Source: Candidatus Krumholzibacteriia bacterium (GTDB taxonomy: Bacteria > Krumholzibacteriota > Krumholzibacteriia > LZORAL124-64-63). Taken from it: a stretch of 45,881 nucleotides of DNA. How positions within the stretch are numbered: the stretch's first letter is position 1; each line of letters opens with the position of its first letter. The stretch spans positions 1-45,881 of the forward strand of contig JAGLCY010000085.1 in NCBI GenBank assembly GCA_023270185.1, read 5' to 3'. A program made the translations under genes and the position numbers. Positions 1-35,544 of this stretch are shown one piece after another. Below the pieces are notes generated by a model that made no database searches, was not told where the DNA came from, and saw nothing but the letters and a program-made list of their open reading frames with translations.

Positions 1-758
1 GTCATTCGGCCCGTTGCCGGGTTTTCATGGACATGGATCTGGACCGGAGGACGGCTGGCGAGGACCCCCCGGGGGGTCCTTTTATGTGTTCCTTTATGAG
101 GTTTTGTCATCGAGTCGGTTTCGCCCGCAATTTCCATCTCCCTGATTTCCAAAAACGCCGCCATCGATTCCAGCATGAACTCCGCGCGATCACTTGGCAC
201 GCCACCCAATTTATGAAGCCGTTCAAGAAGTGCCGACCGCCGCGCTTCCTGCTCCGGGCTCAAATCCACCACGAAGCGCGCGGGCAGTTCGCGCGGAGCG
301 ACCACCGGAGGCGATGAAGGCAGCAACACTCCCTGACCCGGATCCACCTTGGCCGCGTTTTTGGCCTTTTTCACTTCGTTGACCAGCTCCTTACGGGTCC
401 CCTTGGCGGCCTTCAGCCAGGTGTCTTGGGTTTCAGGTGTGGCCACCGATACGATTTCCCGCGCCTTGGTGTAGCCGAGATCCCCACTGGCCACGGCCTG
501 TCTAACCGCGGGCAACTTATCCAACTGCCGCGCCAAACGTATAAAATCGCCGGCCTTGGATTTGGAAAATCCCAGTTCCTGAATGGCGTACTGGTTGATG
601 GAAGAGCAACCCATATCACGATAGAGATCGCGCTTCATGACCTCGCCGAACCACAGAACGGCGCATTGGTGGGCATTCTCCATGATGGTCAAGGAGCGCC
701 GAAGCAAGACGTGGACTTGAGCGGCAGGCTGATCGGGAATATAAGAAATTTCGGACAT
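1..758 (-). CDS. HNH endonuclease-like protein (DUF222/13E12-type N-terminal region), 3' end beyond window edge
   Basis: Own translation: MSEISYIPDQPAAQVHVLLRRSLTIMENAHQCAVLWFGEVMKRDLYRDMGCSSINQYAIQELGFSKSKAGDFIRLARQLDKLPAVRQAVASGDLGYTKAREIVSVATPETQDTWLKAA...SRPPVQIHVHENPATGRMT, open to the left edge. GGAGG SD 6 nt before the ATG at 758. Absent from ORF track because no stop lies in the window. Confidence 0.65.
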   Translation of the reverse strand, partial: MSEISYIPDQPAAQVHVLLRRSLTIMENAHQCAVLWFGEVMKRDLYRDMGCSSINQYAIQELGFSKSKAGDFIRLARQLDKLPAVRQAVASGDLGYTKAREIVSVATPETQDTWLKAAKGTRKELVNEVKKAKNAAKVDPGQGVLLPSSPPVVAPRELPARFVVDLSPEQEARRSALLERLHKLGGVPSDRAEFMLESMAAFLEIREMEIAGETDSMTKPHKGTHKRTPRGVLASRPPVQIHVHENPATGRM

Positions 759-987
759 GGAATTCCTCCAAATATAAGGATGATGGGAGGTGCGACCAAT
801 ATACGAACAAAAAACGAAAGAAACAAGAAAAAACAGCGAAAAAGAAGATTATTATGTCACCTGGGGAAAGCCGTTCAAATGCCCACCCGAGAACCCCTCG
901 GTTGATCTTTCCCGGCTAAATTCATTGCTAGTTACAAAATCCATCATATTTGAAAACAAGTTTTCAACCGCATGTAAAGGCTAAGAC

Positions 988-1019
988 AAAAAAAAGAGCC
1001 CACCCAACAGGGCAGGCTC
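988..1019 (-). terminator. Rho-independent terminator downstream of ctpA
   Basis: Minus strand GAGCCTGCCC-TGTT-GGGTGGGCTC (10-bp stem with G-U pairs) followed by TTTTTTTT. Confidence 0.8.
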
Positions 1020-1040
1020 CTAATTTCAAAATCAAAAAAG

Positions 1041-2819
1041 TCAGTTGGAAACGGACTCTTCTTCCTCGCCATCCCCATCACCCTCAGCCGCCAGCAATCG
1101 CATCTGCTCGGCGTTCCATTCCTCGGCCAGCGCCAGAAGCTCCGGCAGAGTCTTGGCCTTGCGGAACAGCTCAAGCGCCTCATGAAGCTGGGTGTCCGCC
1201 TCGATGGCCACCTTGTACGCGGCGGTCGGGCCATGCAGCCTGCGGGCCACCTCGCGCCGCATGCCGCGTTTGATGAACTCGCTGTTGGCGTCCACCAGGG
1301 AATCGGTGTAAGCCAATTCGAAGACCTCGAGGTATTCGCCGATCTTTTCCCGGTCAGCCAGGAATTCCTTGAACTCGTTGTAATCCGCGTCGCTGACCTG
1401 GTAGTCCTCGGGGATGTCCGTGTTATTGGCCGCGTAATCCACCGCGAAACCGAACAGGGCGCCGTCACGTTCCACGGCCACCTCGAAATCCTTCAGGAAA
1501 TCCTGGTCGATTTCGATGTCGGGGTTGATTCCCCCGCCTCCATAGACCACACGACCGCCGTCGGTGTAGAACTTCTCCTTGTCGAACCGGTGGAGCTCTT
1601 TCTCGGCGGGATCCATTTCCAGTTCCTCGGTCGCCGGTTCACCCTCACCCTCGGGCTCGGCCGCATCCTCTTCCATCGCCTTGCCCATTTCCTCCATGGG
1701 ATCGCCGTGCCGGGGACGGGCCTTGTGGATCGACCGGCCGCTGGGCGTGTAGTAGCGCGCGGTGGTCAATTTGAGGGCTTCATCCTCGTCGAGCCGGAAC
1801 ACCGTCTGCACCGAACCCTTACCGAAGGATGTCTGGCCCACCACCAGGCCCGCGTCATGATCCTGGATGGCCGCCGACACGATTTCACTGGCGGAGGCCG
1901 ACGAACCATTGATCATCACGACAATCGGGACCTCGTTGTAGACCTTGCCCCGGCTTTCGCTGTAGAAGGAGTGGTTCTGGGAACGCAAACGGCCCTTGGT
2001 GAAAACGATCAGGTCGTCCTTGGGCAGAAAGAGTTCACTGACCCCCTGCGCCGCGTCCAGCAGGCCACCGGGGTTGAAGCGCAGATCCAGGATCAGCCCC
2101 TTCATACCCGCGGCGGTCATTTCGTCCAGTTTCACCCTCAACTCGTCCTTGGTGGAGCGGGCGAAGTTCTGGACCCTGACGTAACCGATGTCGTCGATCA
2201 TGAAGCCGTAGGGCACGCTCTCGATCTTGATGATGTCACGGGTGATGGTGAACGGCAGCGGTGCCTCGGTCCCCGGTCGCTTGATTGTGATGTTGACCTG
2301 GGTTCCCGCCTTGCCGCGCAGCAGTTTCACGGCCTCGCGGCTGGTGAAATCCTTGCTGGATTCACCTTCGATCTCGATGATCTGGTCACCGCCCTGGATA
2401 CCCATGTAGTAGGCCGGTGTTCCCTCGATGGGCGACACCACCGTGGGATAGTGGTCGCGGATGTTGATGGTGATGCCCAGACCGCCGAACTCGCCTTCGG
2501 TGGACATCACAAGATCCTCGTAGTTCATGGGCGGCAGATAATTTGAATGCTCGTCGAGTTCGTCGAGCATACCCTGGATGGCCGCTTCCATGACTTCCTT
2601 GGGATCCATCTCATCGACGTAGTTGTTGATGATCTTGTCGTAGACGTCGCCCATGATCTTGAGATTGTCGTAGAACTCCCGTCGCCTGGTCGCGGGATCG
2701 TCGCCGGCAAAGGCGAACGACGCGGTCAACACCGACATCAGTACGAAAACATGGACAAGGCGCCGCAGATGACGCGCGTGGACGACCGGGTTGTGGTGTT
2801 TATTCTGGAGATTGGACAT
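1041..2819 (-). CDS. ctpA: S41 family C-terminal processing peptidase with PDZ domain
   Basis: Signal peptide, PDZ (GGLGITINIRDHYPTVVSPIEGTPAYYMGIQGGDQIIEI), catalytic region VMINGSSASASEIVSAAIQDH and GKGSVQT. Confidence 0.93.
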   Translation of the reverse strand: MSNLQNKHHNPVVHARHLRRLVHVFVLMSVLTASFAFAGDDPATRRREFYDNLKIMGDVYDKIINNYVDEMDPKEVMEAAIQGMLDELDEHSNYLPPMNYEDLVMSTEGEFGGLGITINIRDHYPTVVSPIEGTPAYYMGIQGGDQIIEIEGESSKDFTSREAVKLLRGKAGTQVNITIKRPGTEAPLPFTITRDIIKIESVPYGFMIDDIGYVRVQNFARSTKDELRVKLDEMTAAGMKGLILDLRFNPGGLLDAAQGVSELFLPKDDLIVFTKGRLRSQNHSFYSESRGKVYNEVPIVVMINGSSASASEIVSAAIQDHDAGLVVGQTSFGKGSVQTVFRLDEDEALKLTTARYYTPSGRSIHKARPRHGDPMEEMGKAMEEDAAEPEGEGEPATEELEMDPAEKELHRFDKEKFYTDGGRVVYGGGGINPDIEIDQDFLKDFEVAVERDGALFGFAVDYAANNTDIPEDYQVSDADYNEFKEFLADREKIGEYLEVFELAYTDSLVDANSEFIKRGMRREVARRLHGPTAAYKVAIEADTQLHEALELFRKAKTLPELLALAEEWNAEQMRLLAAEGDGDGEEEESVSN

Positions 2820-2885
2820 TCATCGTTCCTTCATTGATGTCTGTTGACATGGTCAGACTGTTTTCGGCACTTCATCGAAATCCTT

Positions 2886-3560
2886 TTACAGGTATTTGAG
2901 AAGTCCGTGATCAAGCCGCTTCAGATGTCCGAGTGTCTTGTTCAACATCTCTTCCGGCGATTCGGTGGCGTCTATCACTTTAAATCGCGGAATCCCTGAA
3001 ACCGCCATCGCCTGGTATCCCTCGTACACACGTTGGTGGAATTCCGCCGTTTCCCGGTCCAGGCGATCGGTTGTTTCCCTGTGGAGTCTTTTCTGGCCCT
3101 CTTCCGGCGGCAAAAGACACAGGAAGGTAAGGTCGGGTTCGATATTGCCAAGCGCCAGCTTATTGAGGGCGTGGACCTGTTTTTCTCCCAGTCCGCGGCC
3201 GAATCCCTGATAAGCCACCGAAGCGTCGGCGAAACGATCGCACAAAATAATCATGCCCGCCTGCAGGGCGATCTCGATTTTCTCGCGCACAAGCTGAGCC
3301 CGGCTCGCCACCATAAGCAGCAGTTCGGTTTCCGCGCACATCCCTTCAGACGCCGTATCGAGCAGAATGTTCCGGATTCGCTCGCCGATGTCGGTCCCAC
3401 CGGGTTCCCGCAGGATCATGGGATCCTCGCCCTTTTCCGCCAGATGGGCGGCAATGGCATTGATCAGGGTCGTCTTGCCGCTGCCCTCGGGGCCTTCGAA
3501 AGTAATCAACAAACCACGATAATCCTCGCCCCCGTGAAGACCACCGGTCGAAGGTGTCAC
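2886..3560 (-). CDS. tmk: dTMP kinase
   Basis: P-loop ITFEGPEGSGKTT, LREPGGTDIGERIR, CDRFADASVAYQGFGRGL. Confidence 0.95.
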   Translation of the reverse strand: MTPSTGGLHGGEDYRGLLITFEGPEGSGKTTLINAIAAHLAEKGEDPMILREPGGTDIGERIRNILLDTASEGMCAETELLLMVASRAQLVREKIEIALQAGMIILCDRFADASVAYQGFGRGLGEKQVHALNKLALGNIEPDLTFLCLLPPEEGQKRLHRETTDRLDRETAEFHQRVYEGYQAMAVSGIPRFKVIDATESPEEMLNKTLGHLKRLDHGLLKYL

Positions 3561-4183
3561 TGTTCATCCTCCTGACCGTGGCGTTCGGCGCCAGGTAATT
3601 TGGCCGCGACATGGACGATGCGCTGGACGGTGGTGGCCAGGGTCGCCACGGCAAGGAACCACAGGACCGGCACCACGGCCCAGCGACCGAGCAACAGGGC
3701 CAGCGTCAGGATGATCACCCGCTCGGTGCGTTGCAAAAATCCCACGGTGCAGGTCTCACCCACACCCTCGGCCCGGGCCCGAACGTAACTCGTGGTCAGG
3801 CTGCCCACCACCACGCATGTGATAAGAACAAGCGCCACAGGGTCACCCCCGTACGGCTGGGTCGCGAAATACCAGGTCAGCCCCGCGAAGAGAAAGGCCT
3901 CTCCCAGGCGGTCGAAACAGGAATCGAGGAAGGCGCCCCGGCGGGAAACCGTTCCCTGAAGGCGGGCCAGATCACCATCCAGCATATCGAAACCCGAACC
4001 GACCAGGAACACGATGGCCCCGAAAAACAGGTTTCCGCGGGCGACTATGAAACCTGAAATCGCGGTGATCAGCAGGCCGAGAAGGGAAACCATCAACGGC
4101 GTCATGCCCAGCTTGTCCAGAGCCAGCACCAGCGGACGCACCTTACCGCGGGCACTTTGTTTGAATTCCGTGAAACCCATCAT
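3557..4183 (-). CDS. CDP-alcohol phosphatidyltransferase family protein (PIP/archaetidylinositol-phosphate synthase-like)
   Basis: CDP-alcohol motif variant DMLDGDLARLQGTVSRRGAFLDSCFDRLGE; downstream SYVRARAEG and RTER resemble inositol-phosphate-transferring members. Overlaps tmk start. Confidence 0.85.
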   Translation of the reverse strand: MMGFTEFKQSARGKVRPLVLALDKLGMTPLMVSLLGLLITAISGFIVARGNLFFGAIVFLVGSGFDMLDGDLARLQGTVSRRGAFLDSCFDRLGEAFLFAGLTWYFATQPYGGDPVALVLITCVVVGSLTTSYVRARAEGVGETCTVGFLQRTERVIILTLALLLGRWAVVPVLWFLAVATLATTVQRIVHVAAKLPGAERHGQEDEQ

Positions 4184-4926
4184 TTTTCTCCTGTTTTTTC
4201 GGCCTTGGCGAGCCGCTTTTTCCCCAATCCCCGCAGGACGATGACCAGTTCGCCCTTCAGGCGCTTGCCCGTCATGATTTCCAGAAGCTGTCCCGCGCTG
4301 CCTCGCAGGGTCTCTTCATGCATTTTCGTGATTTCCCTGGCCACCGCCAAAATCCGGGTCGGCGCCAGTTCTTCCAGTATTTCAAGGGTCGACCTGATCC
4401 GGTGGCACGATTCGAAGATCAGGACCGAACCCGGTTCAGCAAGGGCGTCTTCCAGGAAAGTCCGCCGCTGGCCCTTTTTCCGGGGCGCGTAACCCAGGTA
4501 CAGGAACCGGTCCGGTGAAAATCCCGACAGGACCAGGGCCGTCACCGTGCTCGAAGGCCCGGGAATCACCGTCCAGGGCAGATCCTCTTCCAGCAGGGAG
4601 CGCACCAGTGTGAATCCGGGATCCGAGATGCAGGGCATCCCCGCGTCGCTGACCACCGCCACCTTTTCCCCGTCTTTCAACCGGGACACGATGACCGGCA
4701 CCACTTTGGCCTTGTTGTGGTCGTGGTAGCTGGCCAGCGGGACCTGGATACCGTAGCGGTCCAGCAGGCGCCTAGTGTGACGTGTATCCTCGGCAAATAC
4801 AACATCGGCCGCGGCAAGCACCGCCAGGGCCCGCAGGCTGATGTCACCCAGATTCCCGATGGGCGTGGCAACAAAATGGCACTGGCCGGCGGGAAAATCG
4901 ACCTCGGGCACCGGAACCTGGATCAA
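4180..4926 (-). CDS. rsmI: 16S rRNA (cytidine(1402)-2'-O)-methyltransferase
   Basis: CHFVATPIGNLGDISLRAL, AEDTRHTRRLLDRYGI, VSDAGMPCISDPGF, VIPGPSS. Confidence 0.95.
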   Translation of the reverse strand: MIQVPVPEVDFPAGQCHFVATPIGNLGDISLRALAVLAAADVVFAEDTRHTRRLLDRYGIQVPLASYHDHNKAKVVPVIVSRLKDGEKVAVVSDAGMPCISDPGFTLVRSLLEEDLPWTVIPGPSSTVTALVLSGFSPDRFLYLGYAPRKKGQRRTFLEDALAEPGSVLIFESCHRIRSTLEILEELAPTRILAVAREITKMHEETLRGSAGQLLEIMTGKRLKGELVIVLRGLGKKRLAKAEKTGEK

Positions 4927-5789
4927 TGGAAACCCCCGTCGGTGAAGGTTTCGTCCTCGGGTTCCGCCTGCGCGTTTCCCTGGTCCGGATCGACCCGGCC
5001 GGGAAAGAAAGCCACCGGCGGGCCACTTCGCTTGAATGCCATGGCTTTCACACGGCCCGCAACCTTGCCGACCAGTTCGGAGTTGAAACCCAGGGCCTCG
5101 AGCTGCTTCGGTCCCAGGCCCTGATCGATCATGTGAACCAACAGGCGATCGACTTCGGAGTAGGTATAACCCAACTCGTCCTCATCGGCCTGGCCTTCCC
5201 ACAGATCCGCGCTCGGAGCTTTGGTCAGAACGGCCTCGGGCAATCCAAGCTCTCGGGCCAGGAGCCGGATCTCGGTCTTGTAGAGCTGCCCCAGCGGATT
5301 CAGGGCGCAGGCGTTGTCACCGTACATGGTCGTGTAGCCGAGCAAATCCTCGGTGCGGTTCCCGGTGCCCAGAACCAGCGACCCGTCGCGGGCCGAAATG
5401 TCGTACAGAACGATCATCCGGCAGCGGGCCATCACGTTGCCACGGCGAATAAGATCACTAGCGGGGATATCGGTCAGAAACGCGTCGGCCATGGAAGTGA
5501 TCTCGATTTTCTCGGTCTTCATGCCCACGGCGGCGGCCACGGCCACAGCATCGCCCACCGAGGCTGCTGAACTCGTGGCGTAGGGCATCATCACGCCCAA
5601 CACTTTGTCCGCCCCCAGGGCACGCGCGCCCAGGCCGGCGGCGACGGCCGAATCGATTCCCCCGGACAATCCGACCACGAGGGAATCCCTGCCCGCGGCT
5701 TCCAAAGTGGCCCGGATGAACGCGGCACACGTTTCATAAGCTTCGGCGGGCTCGACGGCCCAGTCGGGACGATCCAATTCAATATTCAT
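4923..5789 (-). CDS. nadE: NAD+ synthase (ammonia-dependent type)
   Basis: LVVGLSGGIDSAVAAGLGARALG, GTGNRTEDLLGYTTMYGDNACALNPLGQLYKTEIR, PSADLWEGQADEDELGYTY. Confidence 0.95.
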   Translation of the reverse strand: MNIELDRPDWAVEPAEAYETCAAFIRATLEAAGRDSLVVGLSGGIDSAVAAGLGARALGADKVLGVMMPYATSSAASVGDAVAVAAAVGMKTEKIEITSMADAFLTDIPASDLIRRGNVMARCRMIVLYDISARDGSLVLGTGNRTEDLLGYTTMYGDNACALNPLGQLYKTEIRLLARELGLPEAVLTKAPSADLWEGQADEDELGYTYSEVDRLLVHMIDQGLGPKQLEALGFNSELVGKVAGRVKAMAFKRSGPPVAFFPGRVDPDQGNAQAEPEDETFTDGGFH

Positions 5790-22940: not shown

Positions 22941-25900
22941 CTAGTTGCTCAGCCGGGTGGCAACGACCACCGGCGCGGTTTCATTTTCCTGTTTGCCTGT
23001 CTTGATATCCACTGAGGAAAGATGCACCACGTACATCCCGCCTTTGACCCTTTCGTAGAGGGAGTCCCTGCCGTCCCAGTAGATAAGATTCGGGGGATTC
23101 CCGTCGAAGCGGCTGTCGAACAGGGTCACCACAAGCCTTCCTTCCAGATCGAATACCCTCACGCGGGTTTCGCTTATGCTTCTGGGATTTGAAATGAAGG
23201 CGATGGGGAATTCCTCACCCTCGCCCGGCAGGAATGTCCTGGCCGGAACACGGAGTTGGATGACAGTCTCGCTGCCCTGGTCACCTCCGGCGGGCATTGA
23301 CGGCGAATAGGGTTTCATTTCAAAGGTCGTGTTGAACTTTTCACTCGTTTCGTCACGACCATCCACACCGTTGCTGCCAGTGGGAGTCTGGTCACCCTCG
23401 GACCCGTTGATGCGTTGGTAGGAATTTCCGAAGTCATTCTGCTTATTGAAGGCATCGCCGGAATTTGTACCGTTTTCCGGCAGGTAGGAATGACTGCCGA
23501 TCTTCTTGCCCGTCTTGTTGAAAAAGATGCTGGATGTTGTTGATTCGTCGGGATCCTTCCAGACAAACACGTCGATGTCGGTAACCTTGTCCTCGCCCTC
23601 CACGAAATGGTAGAGGATGATCGTCTCAGCCGAATTGGTAAGCGTGGGACTCGACTCGCCGACGATGCTGTTGCTGGAGGCATTCCCGAAAATCCAGCGC
23701 ATGTCGGGCACGCCATCAGGCCCGCCACCGTCTTCGTACAACTCCAGGTCCGGATTGAAACCGAATTCGCCAAAGAACACCGAGCTGCCAGGCACGGCGA
23801 TAACAATGGTGTCGCCGGCCGCAATGGAATAGCCGTCAGGGAAACGAGCGTGGAAGTCGCTGAAAGCCCCACCGCCGACAGTGCTCTGTGAAGGATTGCC
23901 CAGGCCGATATTGTAATAATATTGGCTATTGGGGCTATGGTTTGCATCCGTCAGGTAGTAATCACTGAGGTCCACCGGCACGGTGCCCGGATTGTGTATC
24001 TCGATGAATTCCTGATCGGATCCAAGCGTACAAATCTCTGTCAACAGAAGCTTTACCGCATCGCCTCCAACCGGAGGGGGTGCCGGCTGGGCGGGATCAG
24101 CAGCCGCCATCTGGAAGGTCCCGTCGAAGTTCTCGCTGGTCTCGTCCCGGCCATCCACACCATTGCTGCCGGTGGGCGTCTGGGTGCCCTCGTTGGCATC
24201 GGTGCGGTGGTAGGACATGCCCGGATCGGTTTCCGAATTGAACGGAGTCTGGGCAGTCGTGGCGGTCTCATCCAGGTAGGAGTGGCTGCCCACGGTCACG
24301 CCGGTCTTGCTGAACAGGAAGCTCGTATCGGCGGAGAGCGCGTCCTTCCAGAAGAACACGTCGATATCCACCACCCGATCCTCGCCGGCTTTCCAACTGT
24401 AGAGGACCACCGTTTCGGCGGCAGGGCTCAGAGCCGGTGTCGACGTGGCGCCGATGATGCTGTTGTTGCTTCCGTCCCCGAAAATGAAATCCATGCTCGG
24501 GACGTTGTCGTCGTCGGAATCATTTTCAAAGAGTTTCAGGTCGGGCATGAAGCCGTAGGCCGCGTTGAAGGCCGTGCTTCCACCCACGGCGATCACGATG
24601 GTATCCCCGGCCGCCAGGGAAAACCCGTCAGGGAATTTGGCGTGGAAGTCGCCGTCGGCGCCGCCGCCCACCGTCGCTGCGCTCGGGCTGCCCTCGGCGA
24701 TCCGCCAGTAGAATTGGCTGGCCGGGGTGTTGACCGCGTCGGTCAGGTAGTAGCTGCCCATGTCCACAGCCGCGGTACCCGGGTTAAGGATCTCGATGAA
24801 CTCGGCGCCCACGTCCTTGGTGCAGACCTCGGTGATGAGGAGTTTGTCCGGGTCGAGCGCCGGCCCACCTCCACCGGGAGCCGAGGGGTCGTAGGGCATC
24901 ATGGCGAAGGTGTTGTTGAAGTTCTCGCTCGTTTCGTCCCGGCCGCCCACACCGTTGCTGCCGGTGGGGGTCTGGCCGCCCTCGGTGGCGTCGGTACGGT
25001 GGTAGGAGTTCCCGAAGGCATTCTCCGAACCGAAGGCGTCATTAATATTGGTGCCTTTTTCAGGCAGATAGGAATGGCTGCCGACCGTCACGCCCGTCTT
25101 GTTGAAGAAGTGGCTTGTGGTCGTCGAGGAGGGATCCTTCCAGGCGAAAACATCGATGTCGATGACCTTGTCCTCACCAGTCACGAAGTGGTAGAGGATC
25201 ACGGTCTCGGCCGTGTTGGAAAGTGTCGGAACCGTCTCGCCGACGATGCTGTTGCTGCCCTCATCCCCGAAAACCCAACGCATGTCAGGTACGGCATCGG
25301 ACGCGGCCCCATCCTCGAAAAGTTCCAGATCCGGATTGAAACCGAAGGCAGCGAAAAACACATCGCTGCCGGCCACGGTGACCACGATGGTGTCTCCGCC
25401 GGCAATCGTGAACCCGGCGGGGAACCTGGCGTGGAAATCATAAAACGCCCCGCCGCCGATGGTCGTCTGGGAAGGATTGCCTTCCGCGATCCGGTAATAA
25501 TACTGGTTGCCACTGCTGTAATTGGCGTCGGTCAGGTAGTAGTCGCTGAGATCCACCTCCACGGTGCCCGGATTGTAGATCTCCACGAATTCCTGATCGG
25601 TGCCCGTCGTACTGACTTCCGTCAGCAGCAGTTTGCCCGGTCCCGTTCCCGGATCAGGATCCTGGGCCACGGTCCAGGAGGCCGCGAAATTGGGCGATCC
25701 GGCCGGATATACGACCGACATGCTTTCCGTGTTTGTTCCCTCGCACCACCAGGCAACAACCGCGCCCTCGGCCTGAGCCGGCACTGTTGCCGTCCACACT
25801 CCGGAGCCATCGGTATTTCCGCCCAGGGTCAGATCGGCGCCCCCGTCAACGGTGTAATGGAATACGGTTTCTTCCACCTCGTCCTGGTCCGCAAGAGTCA

Positions 25901-26855
25901 CCGAAAGGGTCACGGCCTGTCCGTCATACGGCGCGGCGGGGTCGATGCCCCCCGCGGTGGCGATGGGAGCAGTGGGATAAGGCGGAATATGGATCGCGGG
26001 CGGTTCGTGCCCAACGACCTCGGGGAACGTCGTGGCCAGGTTTTCACTGGTCTCGTCGTGACCACCTATGCCATTGCCGCCGGTGAGGGTTTCGGTGCCT
26101 TCGTCGGTGTTGATCCGGCGCAGAGAGCTGCCGGCGACCGGACCGGTCGCGGCAGCGGCTTCCTGGGAAGCCACCGCGGTGTCCGCCTTATAGGATCCAC
26201 CGCCGATGGAAATCCCGGTCTTGTCGATGCGCACGTTATTGTCGGCGCCCCACATGACGTAATCCAGATCCTGGACGAGATCGGTGGCCCCGTCCCAGGA
26301 GTAGAGAATCAGGCTGGCCGCGGTTGCGGAAAGAGCCGGCGCGTTGCCCGCGCCGCCAAGACCGGCGTTGATCGACTCTTGATATGCTTCCAACATTTCC
26401 GGCACGCCATCAGGTTCCGCACCATCCTCGAACAGTTCGAAGTCGGGATTGTTGCCATAGGCCGCCAGATACTCGGCGCTGCCGTTCAAGGCGATGGCGA
26501 TGCTTCCTGAGGCCGGCAATACGAAACCGGCGGGGAACCTGGCGTGGAAGCCACCGGCGGTCCCACCACCGGGGTTGGCCGAGGCCGGATCCAGCAGGGC
26601 GATGTTGTAGTAGTAGGTCGCCGGAGCGGCCGCGCCGTTGGTGAGATAGACGTTATCCATGGGGATGGGTGACCCCGTGGGATTTTCGATCTCGATGAAC
26701 GGGCTGCTTCCGGTAGCGGTCTGGACCACGACTTCGCTGATGATCAGATGGTCAGCCGTAGCGGCGAAGGCCGACGTGGCGATGACACCCACCGCCAGCA
26801 AAGACAAGATCAACCACCTGAAAGCCCGGGATGATTCCCTACGAAAACTGGACAT
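22941..26855 (-). CDS. Secreted multi-lamin-tail-domain (LTD) protein with C-terminal FlgD-Ig-like domain
   Basis: Four LTD-like units (LLLTEVSTTGTDQEFVEIYNPGTVEVDLSDYYLTDA... etc.), one intervening Ig-like domain, C-terminus VRVFDLEGRLVVTLFDSRFDGNPPNLIYWDGRDSLYERVKGGMYVVHLSS. Likely start MSSFRRESSRAFRW. Confidence 0.85.
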   Translation of the reverse strand: MSSFRRESSRAFRWLILSLLAVGVIATSAFAATADHLIISEVVVQTATGSSPFIEIENPTGSPIPMDNVYLTNGAAAPATYYYNIALLDPASANPGGGTAGGFHARFPAGFVLPASGSIAIALNGSAEYLAAYGNNPDFELFEDGAEPDGVPEMLEAYQESINAGLGGAGNAPALSATAASLILYSWDGATDLVQDLDYVMWGADNNVRIDKTGISIGGGSYKADTAVASQEAAAATGPVAGSSLRRINTDEGTETLTGGNGIGGHDETSENLATTFPEVVGHEPPAIHIPPYPTAPIATAGGIDPAAPYDGQAVTLSVTLADQDEVEETVFHYTVDGGADLTLGGNTDGSGVWTATVPAQAEGAVVAWWCEGTNTESMSVVYPAGSPNFAASWTVAQDPDPGTGPGKLLLTEVSTTGTDQEFVEIYNPGTVEVDLSDYYLTDANYSSGNQYYYRIAEGNPSQTTIGGGAFYDFHARFPAGFTIAGGDTIVVTVAGSDVFFAAFGFNPDLELFEDGAASDAVPDMRWVFGDEGSNSIVGETVPTLSNTAETVILYHFVTGEDKVIDIDVFAWKDPSSTTTSHFFNKTGVTVGSHSYLPEKGTNINDAFGSENAFGNSYHRTDATEGGQTPTGSNGVGGRDETSENFNNTFAMMPYDPSAPGGGGPALDPDKLLITEVCTKDVGAEFIEILNPGTAAVDMGSYYLTDAVNTPASQFYWRIAEGSPSAATVGGGADGDFHAKFPDGFSLAAGDTIVIAVGGSTAFNAAYGFMPDLKLFENDSDDDNVPSMDFIFGDGSNNSIIGATSTPALSPAAETVVLYSWKAGEDRVVDIDVFFWKDALSADTSFLFSKTGVTVGSHSYLDETATTAQTPFNSETDPGMSYHRTDANEGTQTPTGSNGVDGRDETSENFDGTFQMAAADPAQPAPPPVGGDAVKLLLTEICTLGSDQEFIEIHNPGTVPVDLSDYYLTDANHSPNSQYYYNIGLGNPSQSTVGGGAFSDFHARFPDGYSIAAGDTIVIAVPGSSVFFGEFGFNPDLELYEDGGGPDGVPDMRWIFGNASSNSIVGESSPTLTNSAETIILYHFVEGEDKVTDIDVFVWKDPDESTTSSIFFNKTGKKIGSHSYLPENGTNSGDAFNKQNDFGNSYQRINGSEGDQTPTGSNGVDGRDETSEKFNTTFEMKPYSPSMPAGGDQGSETVIQLRVPARTFLPGEGEEFPIAFISNPRSISETRVRVFDLEGRLVVTLFDSRFDGNPPNLIYWDGRDSLYERVKGGMYVVHLSSVDIKTGKQENETAPVVVATRLSN
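23270..25645 (-). repeat. Three in-frame tandem coding repeats with exact 792-bp period (264 codons)
   Basis: Anchor tc(a/g)ct(c/g)gt(t/c)tcgtc...ttgctgcc(a/g)gtggg.gtctgg begins at 23341, 24133 and 24925 (792-bp spacing). A diverged fourth copy lies at 26044 (+1119 bp). Confidence 0.9.
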
Positions 26856-27027
26856 CGAGGCGCTCCCTTCAAGGGATCCGGAGAGAGAGGTTTTTGGTTT
26901 GGAGACGGACCATAACTTGCGCGAGGTTTGCATTCAAGCCCTAGTTATAAAGAAAACAACTATGAAAATGAGTATTAAAAATAAATGAAAAAAGCATTAA
27001 ATCAGTGGGGTTTAAACAATCAATGAT

Positions 27028-29546: not shown

Positions 29547-29667
29547 CTCGCCCTCCTCCTCGATAGTGGGTGTTATTCATGTACTGTTATATGATAAAGT
29601 CCAAATCCAAGGTTTCCAACCCGGATTATCACTTCCGGGCACAAATTCCTCTCGAGGAGGAATCATA

Positions 29668-31086
29668 ATGAGCACGATACGACAACCTGTCCTCAGTGGA
29701 TCCTGGTACCCGGCCGATCCGACGGATCTGGCCGCGGCGGCCGACGGATACCTGTCCGGAGCCGACCTCTCGATCCGACCGGCCGGACGCCCTCTGGTGG
29801 CCGTGGTCCCCCACGCGGGTTATGTCTACAGCGGTTCCACGGCGGGCAAGTTGCTGGGCTTGCTGCGGGAAAGCCCGCCCCGACGCATCATCCTGCTGGC
29901 CCCAAATCACCGGGTTGCCCTGGACCGGATTGCCCTGAGCGGCGCCTGGGCCTTCGCCACCCCCTTGGGAACCGTCGGGGTCGATCAAGCAGCTGTGGAG
30001 CAACTAGCTGAAAACATATCATTTACGACCAACGACCGAGCTCACGCCAAGGAACATGCCATCGAGATCCAGTTGCCCCTGATTCAGCGGACCTGGCCTG
30101 ATGCCGTGCCCCTGATCGTCCCCTTGCTGGTGCCCGCCCTGTCGAATGACCAACGCCGGGAGGCCGCGGCAGCCCTGGCCAAACTGGCCACCGAGGACAC
30201 CCTTTTCCTGGTTTCCACTGATTTCACCCACTATGGAGCCTCCTACGGCTATGTTCCGTTCACCGAAAACCTTCCGACCGCCCTGGAGGAACTGGATTCA
30301 GGGGCCATCCTGAGAATCCTGGCCGCCGATGCGGCGGGCCTGCTCGAATACGGCCGCTCGACCGGAATAACCATGTGTGGATTGGAAGCGACGGCTGTGA
30401 CCCTGGGTCAGGACCTTCCCGAGGGGTATGAAGGCGCCTTGATCGACTACACTCGCAGTGGCGACCGTGATGGTGACTATTCGCTTTCGGTGAGTTATGC
30501 CTCCATTCTGCTGTGTTCAGGGCCCGAGGGGCGGCTCAATGACAAAGAAAAACAGTTCCTGAAGGGCGTTGCCCGGCAGTCCGTGGAAGCCGCGGTAAAA
30601 AATCAATCAGTTAAAGATTCCCTTACCCTGGCCACAGAGGCGGGGATAGATCTCTCGGCGAGTCTGGTCTCCCACCGGGGAGCCTTTGTCACCTTGACCA
30701 TCGCCGGCCAGCTGCGGGGTTGCATCGGCTACATCGAGGGTATTAAGCCCCTTGTGGACGCCGTGGCGGAAAACGGCCGCAGTGCCGCCGTAGGAGATCC
30801 CCGCTTCAACCCGGTGGCTGTCGACGAGCTTGCCCGCCTTGAAATCGAGGTTTCGGCCCTGACCCCTCTGGTTCCCATCGCCGGGCCAGGGGAAATCGTC
30901 ATCGGGCGCCATGGCGTGGTGCTGGCCAAAGGAGGTCGGCGGGCTGTGTTTTTGCCCCAAGTGGCGACCGAACAGGACTGGGATCGTGACACCATGCTGA
31001 CCCATCTGGCCCTCAAGGCGGGTCTGGATCCGGACGGCTGGCGAGAGGGCGCCGAATTTCTGGTTTTCGAGGCAGACGTTTTCTAG
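29668..31086 (+). CDS. AmmeMemoRadiSam system protein B (Memo) fused to AMMECR1 domain (protein A)
   Basis: Memo: VLSGSWYPADPTDLAAAADGYL, VVPHAGYVYSGSTAGKLL, LLAPNHR, HAKEHAIEIQLPLI, STDFTHYG. AMMECR1 after about residue 290: GAFVTLTIAGQLRGCIGYIEGIKPLVDAVAENGRSAAVGDPRFNPV, LEIEVSALTPL. SD GAGGAGGAA before ATG. Confidence 0.92.
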   Translation: MSTIRQPVLSGSWYPADPTDLAAAADGYLSGADLSIRPAGRPLVAVVPHAGYVYSGSTAGKLLGLLRESPPRRIILLAPNHRVALDRIALSGAWAFATPLGTVGVDQAAVEQLAENISFTTNDRAHAKEHAIEIQLPLIQRTWPDAVPLIVPLLVPALSNDQRREAAAALAKLATEDTLFLVSTDFTHYGASYGYVPFTENLPTALEELDSGAILRILAADAAGLLEYGRSTGITMCGLEATAVTLGQDLPEGYEGALIDYTRSGDRDGDYSLSVSYASILLCSGPEGRLNDKEKQFLKGVARQSVEAAVKNQSVKDSLTLATEAGIDLSASLVSHRGAFVTLTIAGQLRGCIGYIEGIKPLVDAVAENGRSAAVGDPRFNPVAVDELARLEIEVSALTPLVPIAGPGEIVIGRHGVVLAKGGRRAVFLPQVATEQDWDRDTMLTHLALKAGLDPDGWREGAEFLVFEADVF

Positions 31087-31117: not shown

Positions 31118-31207
31118 GGGATCGTAAAACCTGACGGCGGAGTGTGCGTATATCCTCTCCCTCTGGGTTGAATGGCCGATTCATTTCCAGAATCAAAGAC
31201 GGTGACC

Positions 31208-32392
31208 ATGGGTCTTCTCGACAAAATCAATAAATTCCGGATCGCCAAGGACATGATGGAGGCCGATCTCTACAACTATTTCCGGGTCATCGAATCCGCC
31301 CAGGAGAATACTGTCCGGTACAAGGGCAAGGAAATCATCATGCTGGGCAGCAACAACTATCTGGGGCTGACCAACCACCCCCTGGTCAAGGAGGCTGCCC
31401 AGGCGGCCATCACCAAGTACGGCACCGGTTGCACGGGATCCCGTTTCCTGAATGGAACCCTGGATATCCACATCGAACTCGAGGAAAAACTGGCCGCTCT
31501 GGTGGGCAAGGAAAAGGCCCTGGTTTTTTCGACGGGATTCATGGTCAACCAGGGTGTTCTCAGTTCCCTGGCCGGTCGCAAGGAAACGATCATCGTCGAC
31601 CGGACCGATCACGCCTCGATCATCGACGGTGCCCGTCTGTCCTTCGCCGATGTACGGAAATATCGCCACAACGACATGGAAAACCTGGAGCTGGTTCTCA
31701 AGAGCGAGAAAGACACCAACAAGCTGATCATCGTGGATGGCGTCTTCTCCATGGAAGGCGACATCGCCAAGCTTCCCGAGATCGTGAAACTGGCCGCGCA
31801 ATACGATTCGGTGATCATGGTGGATGACGCCCATGGCGTCGGAGTGCTCGGCGATCAGGGCCGGGGCACCTGCAACCATTTCGGACTCACTGATCAGGTC
31901 GATCTGATCATGGGTACCTTCAGCAAATCCCTGGCATCAGTAGGCGGGTTCGTCGCCGGCGACGCCGACGTCATCCATTTCATCCAGCACATGGCCCGCG
32001 CCCTGATGTTCTCCGCCAGCATGCCACCCGCCTCGGTGGCCTCCGTATCGGCAGCCATCGATGTGATGCTCGAGGAGGAATGGCGCCACAAGGCTTTGTG
32101 GCACAACAATGATCTCATGCGTGAACGTCTGGACGACGCCGGCTTCAACACCGGCCCGAGTGAGACCCCCATAATCCCCGCCGTGGTCGGGGAAGATATG
32201 GCGGCTTTCAAAATGTGCCGGCGTCTGATCGACGAGGGTGTTTTCGTCAATCCCGTCATCAGCCCCGCCGTCGAACCCGGCAACGCCCTGATCCGCCTGA
32301 GCCTGATGGCGACTCACACCGAGGACGAAATCAACCAGGCCATGGACAGCATGATAAAGGTGGGCAAGGAACTGGAACTGATTCCCAGTTAA
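31208..32392 (+). CDS. spt: Serine palmitoyltransferase (alpha-oxoamine synthase family)
   Basis: MGLLDKINKF..YFRVIESAQENTVRYKGKEIIMLGSNNYLGLTNHP, GTGCTGSRFLNGTLDIHIELE, VDDAHGVGVLGDQGRGTCNHFG, PLP-Lys region MGTFSKSLASVGGF; strongly reminiscent of Bacteroidetes SPT. Confidence 0.85.
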   Translation: MGLLDKINKFRIAKDMMEADLYNYFRVIESAQENTVRYKGKEIIMLGSNNYLGLTNHPLVKEAAQAAITKYGTGCTGSRFLNGTLDIHIELEEKLAALVGKEKALVFSTGFMVNQGVLSSLAGRKETIIVDRTDHASIIDGARLSFADVRKYRHNDMENLELVLKSEKDTNKLIIVDGVFSMEGDIAKLPEIVKLAAQYDSVIMVDDAHGVGVLGDQGRGTCNHFGLTDQVDLIMGTFSKSLASVGGFVAGDADVIHFIQHMARALMFSASMPPASVASVSAAIDVMLEEEWRHKALWHNNDLMRERLDDAGFNTGPSETPIIPAVVGEDMAAFKMCRRLIDEGVFVNPVISPAVEPGNALIRLSLMATHTEDEINQAMDSMIKVGKELELIPS

Positions 32393-32420
32393 TCCGGGGT
32401 TATGCCGAACCCGATTTTCG

Positions 32421-32465
32421 ACCCGGGAAGTTCTCGAATTCGTTCCAGGACCTCCCGGGTTTTTA
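32421..32465 (+). terminator. Intercistronic terminator/attenuator-like hairpin between spt and the GNAT gene
   Basis: ACCCGGGA ... TCCCGGGT directly followed by TTTTA; next gene starts at 32484. Confidence 0.6.
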
Positions 32466-32483
32466 TCGATAAGGGAGAATGCG

Positions 32484-33608
32484 ATGACCGTGACGATTTC
32501 CCCCGTCGGCGAAGACAAATACGCTCTCCGGGAATTCCTGGACGTTCCCTACCGGATCTACCGTGATGATCCCAACTACGTGTTCCCTCTCCTGGACGAG
32601 ATGAAACATTTCCACGACAGGAAAAAGAATCCTTTCTACAACCACGCCACTTCCGAACTGTGGCTGGTCCGCGACGGGGGGCAGGTGGTCGGCCGCATCG
32701 GAGCGGCCGTGGACCAGTACAACAACGATCATTGGCAGGAGAAGGTGGGTTTTTTCGGTTTCTACGAGGTCGACGACAACCCCGCCGCGGCGGCCGCGCT
32801 GCTGGAAACCGCGCGGGAATGGATCGCCGGCCAGGGCATGGACACGATGCGCGGACCGGGTTGTTTCACCTCGAACCACGACTGGTACGGCCTGCAGGTG
32901 GACGGCAAATTCAACCGCCCGGTTCTCGGCATGCCCTACAATCCCCGCTATTACGAGAAACAGTTCGAGGATTTCGGCCTGGCCGGAGCCAAGGATCTAT
33001 ACGCCTGGGACATCAGGACCGGAGGCGTCCTGCCCGAAAAAATGCAGCGGCTCATCGACCGCATCATGGCCCGGCCCGGGCTGGTCATCCGTCCGTTCAA
33101 CATGAAGAAGTTTACCGCCGAAGCCAACCTTGTGCGTGACCTGTACAACAAGACCTGGAGCGAGAACTGGGGATTCATACCTCTGGACGACGAGGATTTC
33201 GCCTACATGGCCAAGGACATGAAATCGATGGTGGATCCGGATTTCCTGCTGGTCGCCGAGATGGAAGGCAAACCCATCGGCTTTTCGTTGAGTATCCCCG
33301 ATTTCAACCAGGCCCTGCAGCCGCTGCGCGGCAAGCTGCTGCCCTTCGGCTGGCTGAAATTCCTTCTGGGCAAGCGGAAGATCAATTACGCGCGCACCAT
33401 CCTGATGGGTGTCCTGCCGGAATACCGCAGACTCGGTGTGGACATCGCCATGGTGTACAAGACCATGATGGCCGCCTTCCCCAAGGGAATTACCTCCGGC
33501 GAATGCTCCTGGATCCTGGCCGACAACGAACCCATGAACCGGATACTGTCCGGTTACGGGGCGGAAATGTACAAGACCTATAGGGTGTACGAAAAGGCGG
33601 TGGGGTGA
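32484..33608 (+). CDS. GNAT-superfamily protein, candidate bacterial ceramide synthase (bCerS-like)
   Basis: MTVTISPVGEDKYALREFLDVPYRIYRDDPNYVFPLLDEMKHFHDRKKNPFYNHA..LWLVRDGGQVVGRIGAAVD; long GNAT-like family member; position between SPT and epimerase genes. Confidence 0.75.
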   Translation: MTVTISPVGEDKYALREFLDVPYRIYRDDPNYVFPLLDEMKHFHDRKKNPFYNHATSELWLVRDGGQVVGRIGAAVDQYNNDHWQEKVGFFGFYEVDDNPAAAAALLETAREWIAGQGMDTMRGPGCFTSNHDWYGLQVDGKFNRPVLGMPYNPRYYEKQFEDFGLAGAKDLYAWDIRTGGVLPEKMQRLIDRIMARPGLVIRPFNMKKFTAEANLVRDLYNKTWSENWGFIPLDDEDFAYMAKDMKSMVDPDFLLVAEMEGKPIGFSLSIPDFNQALQPLRGKLLPFGWLKFLLGKRKINYARTILMGVLPEYRRLGVDIAMVYKTMMAAFPKGITSGECSWILADNEPMNRILSGYGAEMYKTYRVYEKAVG

Positions 33609-34624
33609 CAAGCGTCAACGGCAGAACGGAAAACAGCGGCCCCTTGATCGCCCTGACCGGGGCGACGGGGTTTCTGGGCAGCCATATTGCCGATACGTTG
33701 CTGGCCCGCAACTACCGGGTTCGGGCATCGGTGCGGATGACAAGCAACCTGCGCTGGCTGGACGCCAAACCCGTCGAAACCGTGGTGGTCGATCTTACCG
33801 ATCCCACTGACTGCGCCCGATTTCTGGCCGGCACGAACGGATTGATTCATTGCGCCGGCGTGGTGAGCGCCCCCGCTCCTGAGATCTATCACACGGCCAA
33901 CGTGACCAGCACCGGGACCCTGCTCGCCGCCGCCGCGAAATCCTGGGCCGGCCGTGAAGATGCCGCCGTCTTCATCCTGATCTCGAGCCTGGCCGCCCAC
34001 GGTCCCGCCGGCATGGATCAACCTGCCCTGGAAACCGATGACTGCAACCCCATCACGCACTACGGCCGCTCCAAGTTGGCCGCCGAGGAACTTCTGGCCA
34101 CGGGTGAATGGGCGTTTCGAACCGCGGTGCTGCGGCCCCCTTCCCTGTACGGTCCCCGGGACTCAGAATTCCTGCCCCTGTTCCGGATGGCGGTCCGGGG
34201 CTGGACCGGTCGCCTGGGCAGCCGCATGACCGGACTTTCCCTGGTCGATGGACGCGACGCCGCCGTCGCCGCCGTCGCCCTGCTGGAAACAAAATCCGCC
34301 ACGGGGCCATATTTCGTGGACGATGGACAGACGGGTTACGACTGGCCGGCCATGGCCGAAGCGCTGGGCCGAATGGCCGGCCGCAGGATCCGCACCCTGC
34401 GGGTGCCCCTGGGTTTGTTGAAATCCATTTCCTGGCTGGCCGGACCTTCCCGAGCCGCGCGATCGGCGGTTCTGAACCGGGACCGGATCCGTGACCTGGA
34501 CACCGTTGGCTGGGTCTGCGACGGCAGGCGCCTGACCGCCGCCACGGGCTTCCGGGCCCGGCGGGACGCGGCCCGGGGATTCACCGAAACACTGGATTTT
34601 TTCCGTGAGGAAGGTTGGCTTTGA
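33605..34624 (+). CDS. NAD(P)-dependent epimerase/dehydratase family protein, candidate ceramide reductase (CerR-like)
   Basis: IALTGATGFLGSHIADTLLARNYRVRASVR, SSLAAHGPAG, YGRSKLAAEELL; GTG start overlaps upstream TGA. Confidence 0.8.
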   Translation: MTSVNGRTENSGPLIALTGATGFLGSHIADTLLARNYRVRASVRMTSNLRWLDAKPVETVVVDLTDPTDCARFLAGTNGLIHCAGVVSAPAPEIYHTANVTSTGTLLAAAAKSWAGREDAAVFILISSLAAHGPAGMDQPALETDDCNPITHYGRSKLAAEELLATGEWAFRTAVLRPPSLYGPRDSEFLPLFRMAVRGWTGRLGSRMTGLSLVDGRDAAVAAVALLETKSATGPYFVDDGQTGYDWPAMAEALGRMAGRRIRTLRVPLGLLKSISWLAGPSRAARSAVLNRDRIRDLDTVGWVCDGRRLTAATGFRARRDAARGFTETLDFFREEGWL

Positions 34625-35544
34625 ACCTCAGGAAGAAGCTGATCGATCTGTCCCTGCGGAGAATGAACATCGACCGCTGGGCCGTGATCTACCTGCTGAT
34701 CAGCGCTTTCTACCCCGTGCTCAAACCCTCCGCGTTTCCCGAACCCTGGGCCAACGCCATCCTGCACGGGGGGCTCGCTCTCATCATCTGGTTTGTCCCG
34801 CCCTTCCTGCGCTGCAGCCGGTTTTTCCCGCTGCGACTTCTGGGTGAAATCTATCTGCCGCTGATTTTTCCCATGTTCTACGCGGAAATGAAATACCTGG
34901 GCATCATATTCTTCGATTTCGAAAACAGCCTCGACCCCTCGCTCATCCGTCTCGAGGAATGGATTTTCGGTGGCCAACCGAGCCTGGAATGGTCGCGCCT
35001 CTGGCCCTGGCCCTGGTTCCACGAGTTGATGGAATTCGCCTACTTCACCTACTACTTCCTGGCGGTCATCTTCCTGATGCTTGTTTTCCGGGCGGGCAAC
35101 CTGGCCGAGCAGGCGAAGTGGGACATGGTGCGGTCGTTCGTTCGCGACCTGAGCCTGACCATGCTTATCTGCTACACCATGTACACCCTGTTCCCCGCCT
35201 GGGGCCCGAAGTACTTCAGGGCCGGATACGTGGAAGTCGACGGTTGGATTTTCACTAGCATCATGCGCCATATCCATGAAAACGGGGCCCTGCTGGGCGC
35301 CGCGTTCCCCTCCAGCCACGTGGCGGCCTCCATGGTGCCCTGGTGGCACACCTGGACCAACTTTCCCCGCCATCGCTGGTGGATGACCACCATCTTCGTC
35401 CTGCTGTGCATGTCCACGGTCTACAACCGGTACCACTACGTGGTGGATGTCATCGCCGGCCTCATACTGGGCGCGCTGGTGATGTACTTTGGCCACCGTC
35501 TGGGGGATGTCGCGAGGGATCGTCTGAAATATCGCAAAGGTTGA
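34621..35544 (+). CDS. PAP2 superfamily protein, Aur1/inositolphosphotransferase-like, multi-TM
   Basis: Motifs LFPAWGPKYF, AAFPSSHVAAS and YNRYHYVVDVIAGL. TTG start overlaps upstream TGA (TTGA) with SD GAGGAAGG; ORF track uses an upstream TTG at 34615. Confidence 0.8.
   Translation: MNLRKKLIDLSLRRMNIDRWAVIYLLISAFYPVLKPSAFPEPWANAILHGGLALIIWFVPPFLRCSRFFPLRLLGEIYLPLIFPMFYAEMKYLGIIFFDFENSLDPSLIRLEEWIFGGQPSLEWSRLWPWPWFHELMEFAYFTYYFLAVIFLMLVFRAGNLAEQAKWDMVRSFVRDLSLTMLICYTMYTLFPAWGPKYFRAGYVEVDGWIFTSIMRHIHENGALLGAAFPSSHVAASMVPWWHTWTNFPRHRWWMTTIFVLLCMSTVYNRYHYVVDVIAGLILGALVMYFGHRLGDVARDRLKYRKG

Follow-up and report, generated by a model that had tools for sequence, protein, structure and literature searches.

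How a bacterium of the uncultured phylum Krumholzibacteriota might assemble a phosphosphingolipid, and which head group it would attach, is the question raised by four adjacent genes in the genome of Candidatus Krumholzibacteriia bacterium, a metagenome-assembled genome (MAG) that comprises 402 contigs and 3.2 Mb and is 89.65% complete. The genes lie on contig JAGLCY010000085.1 (assembly GCA_023270185.1), of which a stretch of 45,881 nucleotides, here called the window, was analysed. In order, they encode a serine palmitoyltransferase (SPT), a tandem-GNAT protein that is a putative bacterial ceramide synthase (bCerS), an epimerase-family reductase (CerR) and a PAP2-type membrane enzyme. The four genes probably form one operon for the de novo synthesis of a phosphosphingolipid, most likely inositol phosphoceramide (IPC).

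Families of the four gene products

The first gene product scored 591 bits against the NCBIfam model for the Bacteroidota-type SPT (NF047600, SerpalmtaseCFB), short of its curated equivalog cut-off of 640, and 411 and 404 bits for KBL and BioF. Its best matches in the Protein Data Bank (PDB) were the SPT structures 3a2b and 8guh at 469 bits, the next BioF/KBL enzyme reaching 314 bits and the cysteate C-fatty acyltransferase 28eh 231 bits. The phylogeny, in which KBL and BioF references were named by gene context (tdh, or bioA/bioD, as neighbours), agrees with these score gaps and with the preliminary description of the locus, which had called the gene an SPT: a 92/98 split places the window protein with the SPTs and apart from KBL and BioF, and the genome's two further alpha-oxoamine synthases join KBL. 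ALAS was set against SPT by score alone, outside the tree. Membership among the serine palmitoyltransferases is supported, and the use of serine and a long acyl thioester is predicted from it.

The family of the second product was settled by homology and synteny, because Pfam returned a weak Acetyltransf_1 match alone and FemAB_like (PF04339), considered as its family, was rejected as not significant (E 0.14). A phmmer search of the PDB with this sequence alone gave no useful match; structure prediction yielded a double-GNAT fold with high confidence (pLDDT 93). In an alignment of close relatives, the acyl-CoA loop motif is RxxGxD and not the usual RxxGxG/A. The nearest named relatives belong to MAGs of Candidatus Krumholzibacteriota/Krumholzibacteriia, with a top identity of 80%. 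Further afield, a Roseomonas marmotae protein matches over the full length (34% identity, 99% coverage, E 2e-58). Its gene lies on a plasmid, with an LptG-like permease gene on one side and a nucleotidyltransferase gene on the other; the surrounding cluster includes genes for an acyl carrier protein (ACP), an SPT, a diacylglycerol (DAG)-kinase-family protein, a cytidine diphosphate (CDP)-alcohol phosphatidyltransferase and a metallophosphoesterase, together with LptF, a cytidylyltransferase, an acyl-AMP ligase and a CerR-like protein. In the Caulobacter cluster this position is that of CC_1154, which encodes CerS (PMC11324152). Moreover, 63 of the 75 rows of the GNAT tree with enough flanking sequence are linked to SPT, and the window protein falls within an SPT-linked clade. 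In Sphingomonas, a relative has ACP, SPT and LptF/G genes in its neighbourhood, and those of Escherichia coli (YghO) and Klebsiella adjoin SPT-like, ACP, CerR-like and acyl-AMP ligase genes. Placement in the bCerS family, which the earlier reading had proposed, is supported, the tie running through the Roseomonas gene and not through the Caulobacter protein itself, and N-acylation of a long-chain base is the predicted activity. As a separate observation, YghO of the E. coli plasmid NZ_MG591698 (positions 1-5101) is a bCerS-family protein within a full ceramide-type gene set, and the same applies to Klebsiella.

The third product belongs to the epimerase family, again as first described, and the residues GxxGxxG, Ser127/128, Tyr153 and Lys157 are invariant. 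It groups with SPT-linked CerR proteins in a tree that has no strong outgroup, a placement that is suggestive. No hydrophobic N-terminus was visible on reading the sequence, no predictor having been run; the Caulobacter CerR is periplasmic (PMC11087976). A second overlapping CerR-like/PAP2 pair is present in the same genome (locus L113, G000:C37, 2301-4225, minus strand; 29%/27% identity) and also in genome G001 (L115); in L113 an alpha/beta hydrolase gene precedes the pair, and another epimerase gene and a CPBP-like protease gene come after it. A distant GNAT and CerR-like pair was also seen by eye among carbamoyltransferase, methyltransferase, radical SAM, FkbH-like and carrier-protein genes (L107, G005:C476, 163-8490), perhaps a natural-product pathway.

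Phosphatases of the PAP2 superfamily carry a C1 motif, KxxxxxxRP, and a C3 motif with Ser-Arg. The fourth product lacks the C1 motif and has Thr-Val at the C3 site where the phosphatases have Ser-Arg, and its triad of His235, His274 and Asp278 is invariant in alignments of 13 and 15 sequences. Its likeness to Aur1 emerged from profile and fold searches, single-sequence phmmer being insufficient (with PAP2 alone it gave no useful match in the PDB). A profile of 15 bacterial PAP2 sequences matches AUR1 over positions 24-284 (E 7.5e-5), and the C-terminal half matches YodM/PgpB by profile. The best fold matches of the structural model (pLDDT 86) are Aur1 (9vj4, E 3.8e-5, with a moderate TM score of 0.57) and Aur1-Kei1 (9ivc, E 1.7e-4), after which come the phosphatases PgpB and LpxE and the human SMSr. 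The Aur1-like character noted in the preliminary description is supported by fold, by profile and by a genome context for inositol lipid synthesis, and the enzyme is predicted to transfer phosphoinositol to ceramide.

In the pathway that we infer from these families, SPT would join serine to a fatty acyl thioester to give 3-ketosphinganine, the GNAT protein would place a second acyl chain on the amine to give (keto)dihydroceramide, and CerR would reduce the ketone either before or after acylation, the order of the two steps being disputed in the literature (PMC11087976). The PAP2 enzyme would then take a phospho-alcohol head group off a glycerophospholipid and pass it, via a covalent phospho-histidine, to the hydroxyl of ceramide, with release of DAG, as Aur1 does; the donor would most likely be phosphatidylinositol (PI) and the product IPC. 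All of these substrates are predictions, as are the reaction order, the head group and the "complete phosphosphingolipid pathway" of the preliminary description.

Gene layout, conservation and distribution

All four open reading frames (ORFs) were confirmed as co-directional genes where they had been placed (Table 1), the last three overlapping. An alternative in-frame ATG for SPT lies at 31172, and the start at 31208 is preferred since nearly all relatives have 392-397 amino acids. Between SPT and the GNAT gene there are 91 bp, containing a Shine-Dalgarno-like AAGGGAG ahead of the latter. The GTGA overlap of the GNAT and CerR genes (33605-33608) stands as described. The TTGA overlap described between CerR and PAP2 holds if PAP2 begins at the TTG at 34621 and becomes a 10-bp overlap if it begins at the TTG at 34615; as we read the sequence, the spacing of GAGGAAGG at 34607-34614 fits the start at 34621 better. 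A promoter and terminator scan of the locus gave signals not clearly above those of shuffled sequences, and co-transcription is therefore deduced from spacing and conservation.

Table 1. Positions of the four genes and of a putative donor-synthesis gene in the window
Feature	Position	Strand	Remarks
spt: serine palmitoyltransferase (pyridoxal phosphate-dependent alpha-oxoamine synthase), predicted first committed step	31208..32392	+	394 aa; Aminotran_1_2
bcerS: tandem-GNAT N-acyltransferase, putative bacterial ceramide synthase	32484..33608	+	Acetyltransf_1
cerR: NAD(P)-dependent epimerase-family protein, putative ceramide or 3-ketosphinganine reductase	33605..34624	+	Epimerase PF01370, 97 bits
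PAP2_3/Aur1-like membrane enzyme, putative phosphosphingolipid (most likely inositol-phosphoceramide) synthase	34615..35544 (start 34615 or 34621)	+	PF14378, 66 bits
CDP-alcohol phosphatidyltransferase, phosphatidylinositol-phosphate synthase (PIPS) type, putative source of phosphoinositol donor	3557..4183	-	27 kb from operon, outside it

The tight linkage pointed out in the preliminary description extends to relatives: every complete locus examined in the family has the genes as SPT-GNAT-CerR-PAP2, the sole interruption being an insertion that separates SPT from GNAT in L101. Another family of the same class (L106) shows this order too, at 31-51% identity. Among 80 Krumholzibacteriota genomes, GNAT and PAP2 were both present in 33 and both absent from 44; GNAT occurred without PAP2 in two genomes and PAP2 without GNAT in one, at a contig end. 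The Fisher p value for this co-occurrence (~6e-19) is optimistic, since relatedness was left uncorrected. With a fixed order and agreement in 77 of 80 genomes, the row is not a chance arrangement.

Across phyla, 80 loci retrieved by GNAT alone were surveyed. The same four-gene order was found in KSB1 and Eisenbacteria, and the order CerR-SPT-GNAT-PAP2 in one locus from Gemmatimonadota. The majority of the remaining loci carry SPT-GNAT and no PAP2, their CerR gene lying upstream in divergent orientation. A record labelled Latescibacterota (L124) was not taken to represent a further phylum, since its SPT and GNAT fall within the Krumholzibacteriota clade, and its label is probably wrong. In Rubrobacter, SPT-GNAT-CerR is followed by a lipoteichoic acid-synthase-family gene, and on a plasmid of Streptomyces NBC_01001 (L203, 4769-9295) by a condensation-domain gene; the gene after the trio thus varies by lineage, and the Rubrobacter case suggests that a head-group enzyme can occupy this place.

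Two other features of the window may be recorded. A single ORF fusing Memo and AMMECR1 domains (29566-31086) lies directly upstream of spt, as in most of the family, and a gene on the minus strand (22941-26933) encodes a protein of 1330 amino acids that, judged by eye, has some four internal repeats similar to one another and, at its C-terminus, a stretch resembling a secretion/sorting domain.

Head group, donor and competing explanations

Chemistry of the yeast (Aur1) type requires PI. The best PDB matches of the PIPS-type protein in the window are the PI(P) synthases 6h53, 5d92 and 6wm5 (~1e-22 to 1e-23), PgsA/PssA enzymes following at 0.07-0.1. It scored 139 bits against NF040950 and 135 bits against NF045883, below their cut-offs of 180 and 170. 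A homologue of this type is present in 77 of the 80 genomes of the phylum, and inositol-phosphate synthase (MIPS) in 34 of 38 genomes. Both are also universal in Krumholzibacteriota that have no operon; they are therefore available without tracking it.

In the operon-bearing family the PIPS type is the only near-universal CDP-alcohol phosphatidyltransferase. All matches to the CDP-alcohol transferase family there are weak by Pfam (best E 1e-12 to 1e-16), and those inspected are of the PIPS type; other families of the class, which lack the operon, have strong matches (E 1e-25 to 1e-34), and the two inspected are PgsA-like. Phosphatidylserine decarboxylase was found in one of the 38 genomes of the class, outside the operon-bearing family, and a strong PgsA/PssA-type match in none of the 23 genomes of that family, negatives that come from incomplete MAGs and from a search that did not include phospholipase D-type PssA or other routes to phosphatidylethanolamine (PE) and phosphatidylglycerol (PG). 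On these counts phosphoinositol is favoured over phosphoethanolamine and is the likeliest head group, PE and PG donors looking unavailable by the classical route in this family and suggesting membranes without classical PE or PG. The lineage appears to lack the customary pathways to PE and PG, the phospholipids most common in bacteria, an absence that, if real, would be unusual for a Gram-negative-type bacterium.

It is possible, although we consider it unlikely, that the ceramide pathway is the same and that the PAP2 enzyme transfers phosphoethanolamine, phosphoglycerol or an unusual CDP-alcohol-derived group, in the manner of the eukaryotic ceramide phosphoethanolamine synthase SMSr. SMSr is the fifth-ranked PDB fold of the PAP2 model, with the Aur1 structures ranking above it. 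CerR and PAP2 genes are also adjacent in Bacteroides finegoldii and Prevotella; Bacteroides make PE-ceramide, and mutants of BT1522, the IPC synthase of Bacteroides thetaiotaomicron, retain PE-dihydroceramide (PMC9246714, PMC8791184). The same Krumholzibacteriia genome has, in addition, an unusual CDP-alcohol transferase adjoining a nucleotidyltransferase. Against such a product stand the single phosphatidylserine decarboxylase among the 38 genomes and the missing PgsA/PssA-type matches of the family. The unusual transferase lies at 501-3278 of another locus (L246, G000:C19), where a HisC-like aminotransferase gene is also found, and may point to a possible unusual head-group pathway.

Several observations count against an operon for IPC. 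The SPT and PIPS-type proteins both stay below curated cut-offs; the operon comes without the Caulobacter-type ACP and acyl-ACP synthetase; the PAP2 fold match is moderate and takes in SMSr, a maker of PE-ceramide; MIPS and PIPS are found with or without the operon; and the PE and PG negatives carry the limits given above. The CerR-PAP2 pair in Bacteroides makes the inositol assignment somewhat weaker, and our confidence in it is moderate.

That the PAP2 enzyme is instead a phosphatase, acting for example on ceramide-1-phosphate or a phosphatidyl-phosphate, with ceramide, or a lipid that undergoes modification elsewhere, as the end product of the operon, is improbable: superfamily membership and the match of the C-terminal half to YodM/PgpB speak for it, but the phosphatase C1 motif and the Ser-Arg of C3 are absent, and the full-length fold fits Aur1, whereas phosphatases fit in part only. 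Least probable of all is that the first enzyme belongs elsewhere among the alpha-oxoamine synthases (as a KBL, a BioF, a cysteate C-fatty acyltransferase or an enzyme that uses alanine) and leads to a different N-acyl lipid, for example a sulfonolipid or a 1-deoxyceramide, for although the fold does not reveal substrate choice and 1-deoxyceramides are known in sphingolipid-producing bacteria (PMC11334938), the protein scores higher against SPT structures than against 28eh and the BioF/KBL enzyme, the tree parts it from KBL, BioF and both paralogues of the same genome, and bCerS and CerR are linked to its gene.

Comparison with known systems

SPT-like proteins have been reported from MAGs of 38 phyla, many of them in clusters (PMC11334938), and SPT, bCerS and CerR are already known in many phyla, with head-group enzymes mostly unassigned; a putative IPC operon would set out a known pathway compactly and name a concrete candidate for the head-group enzyme, and as a single four-gene unit it could be transferred into E. 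coli. A literature search that covered few subscription papers found nothing linking Krumholzibacteria with sphingolipids or PI. As far as our searches could tell, three things are undescribed: the Krumholzibacteriota case, the presence of cerS within a single operon, and a fixed link to an Aur1-like gene.

Caulobacter crescentus has the same three enzyme families, encoded by spt (CC_1162), cerR (CC_1164) and bcerS (CC_1154) (PMC11324152, PMC11087976), and in the Roseomonas version of the cluster the homologue of the window GNAT is encoded where CC_1154 would stand. Clusters of the Caulobacter type add acpR, aasR, LptF/LptG and a kinase/CDP-alcohol head-group route; the Krumholzibacteriota row unites SPT, bCerS and CerR without ACP or acyl-ACP synthetase and places PAP2 last, and no acpR, aasR or LptF/LptG-like gene adjoins the operon in the window or is found among the conserved neighbours in relatives. 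In the Caulobacter group cerS always lies in an operon apart from spt and cerR (PMC11324152), so that a single unit with cerS inside is a departure from the Caulobacter model and not a copy of it. The fungal Aur1 structures (9vj4, 9ivc) are the best fold and profile match to the PAP2 enzyme and show the same His/His/Asp arrangement, at ~17% identity to the window protein; the Kei1 partner was neither found nor sought.

In B. finegoldii the PAP2 gene overlaps a CerR-like reductase gene by 10 bp, and the same pair occurs in Prevotella (L204, L205); by profile scores these PAP2 proteins belong to the same family as that of the window. They differ in a loop of about 25-30 residues inserted ahead of the AAFPSSHV motif, and SPT lies on another record of the same assembly with neither bCerS nor CerR beside it. 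BT_0972 was rejected as the CerR beside the Bacteroides PAP2, being a 31-kDa classical short-chain dehydrogenase (PMC9278070), whereas the protein of L204 is of the epimerase type with 335 amino acids. No gene assignment for the Bacteroides PE-ceramide synthase was found in the literature (PMC9246714, PMC8791184). Since BT1522 lies at another locus and its loss spares PE-dihydroceramide, the CerR-linked PAP2 is proposed as a candidate for that enzyme, testable in genetically tractable gut bacteria. A bolder picture may be offered tentatively, as a doubtful one: membranes of the operon-bearing family would lack PE and PG, inositol would be the sole head group of glycerophospholipids made by CDP-alcohol transfer, and the IPC of the operon would be the other major lipid, a eukaryote-like pair of PI and IPC, while the CerR-linked PAP2_3 proteins would make up a family of bacterial phosphosphingolipid synthases, the missing Bacteroides enzyme among them.

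Another close parallel to the proposed IPC operon is the BT1522-1526 inositol-lipid cluster of B. thetaiotaomicron (PMC8791184, PMC9246714), which combines an Aur1-like enzyme using PI and ceramide, a phosphatidylinositol-phosphate synthase and MIPS. BT1522 was compared by its description, and the PIPS-type protein of the window scored 96 bits against the BT1523 model NF052561, whose cut-off is 350. The linkage differs: the IPC synthase of B. thetaiotaomicron is encoded with the inositol genes and away from SPT, whereas the Krumholzibacteriota candidate for this role is encoded with the ceramide genes, at a distance from those for inositol.

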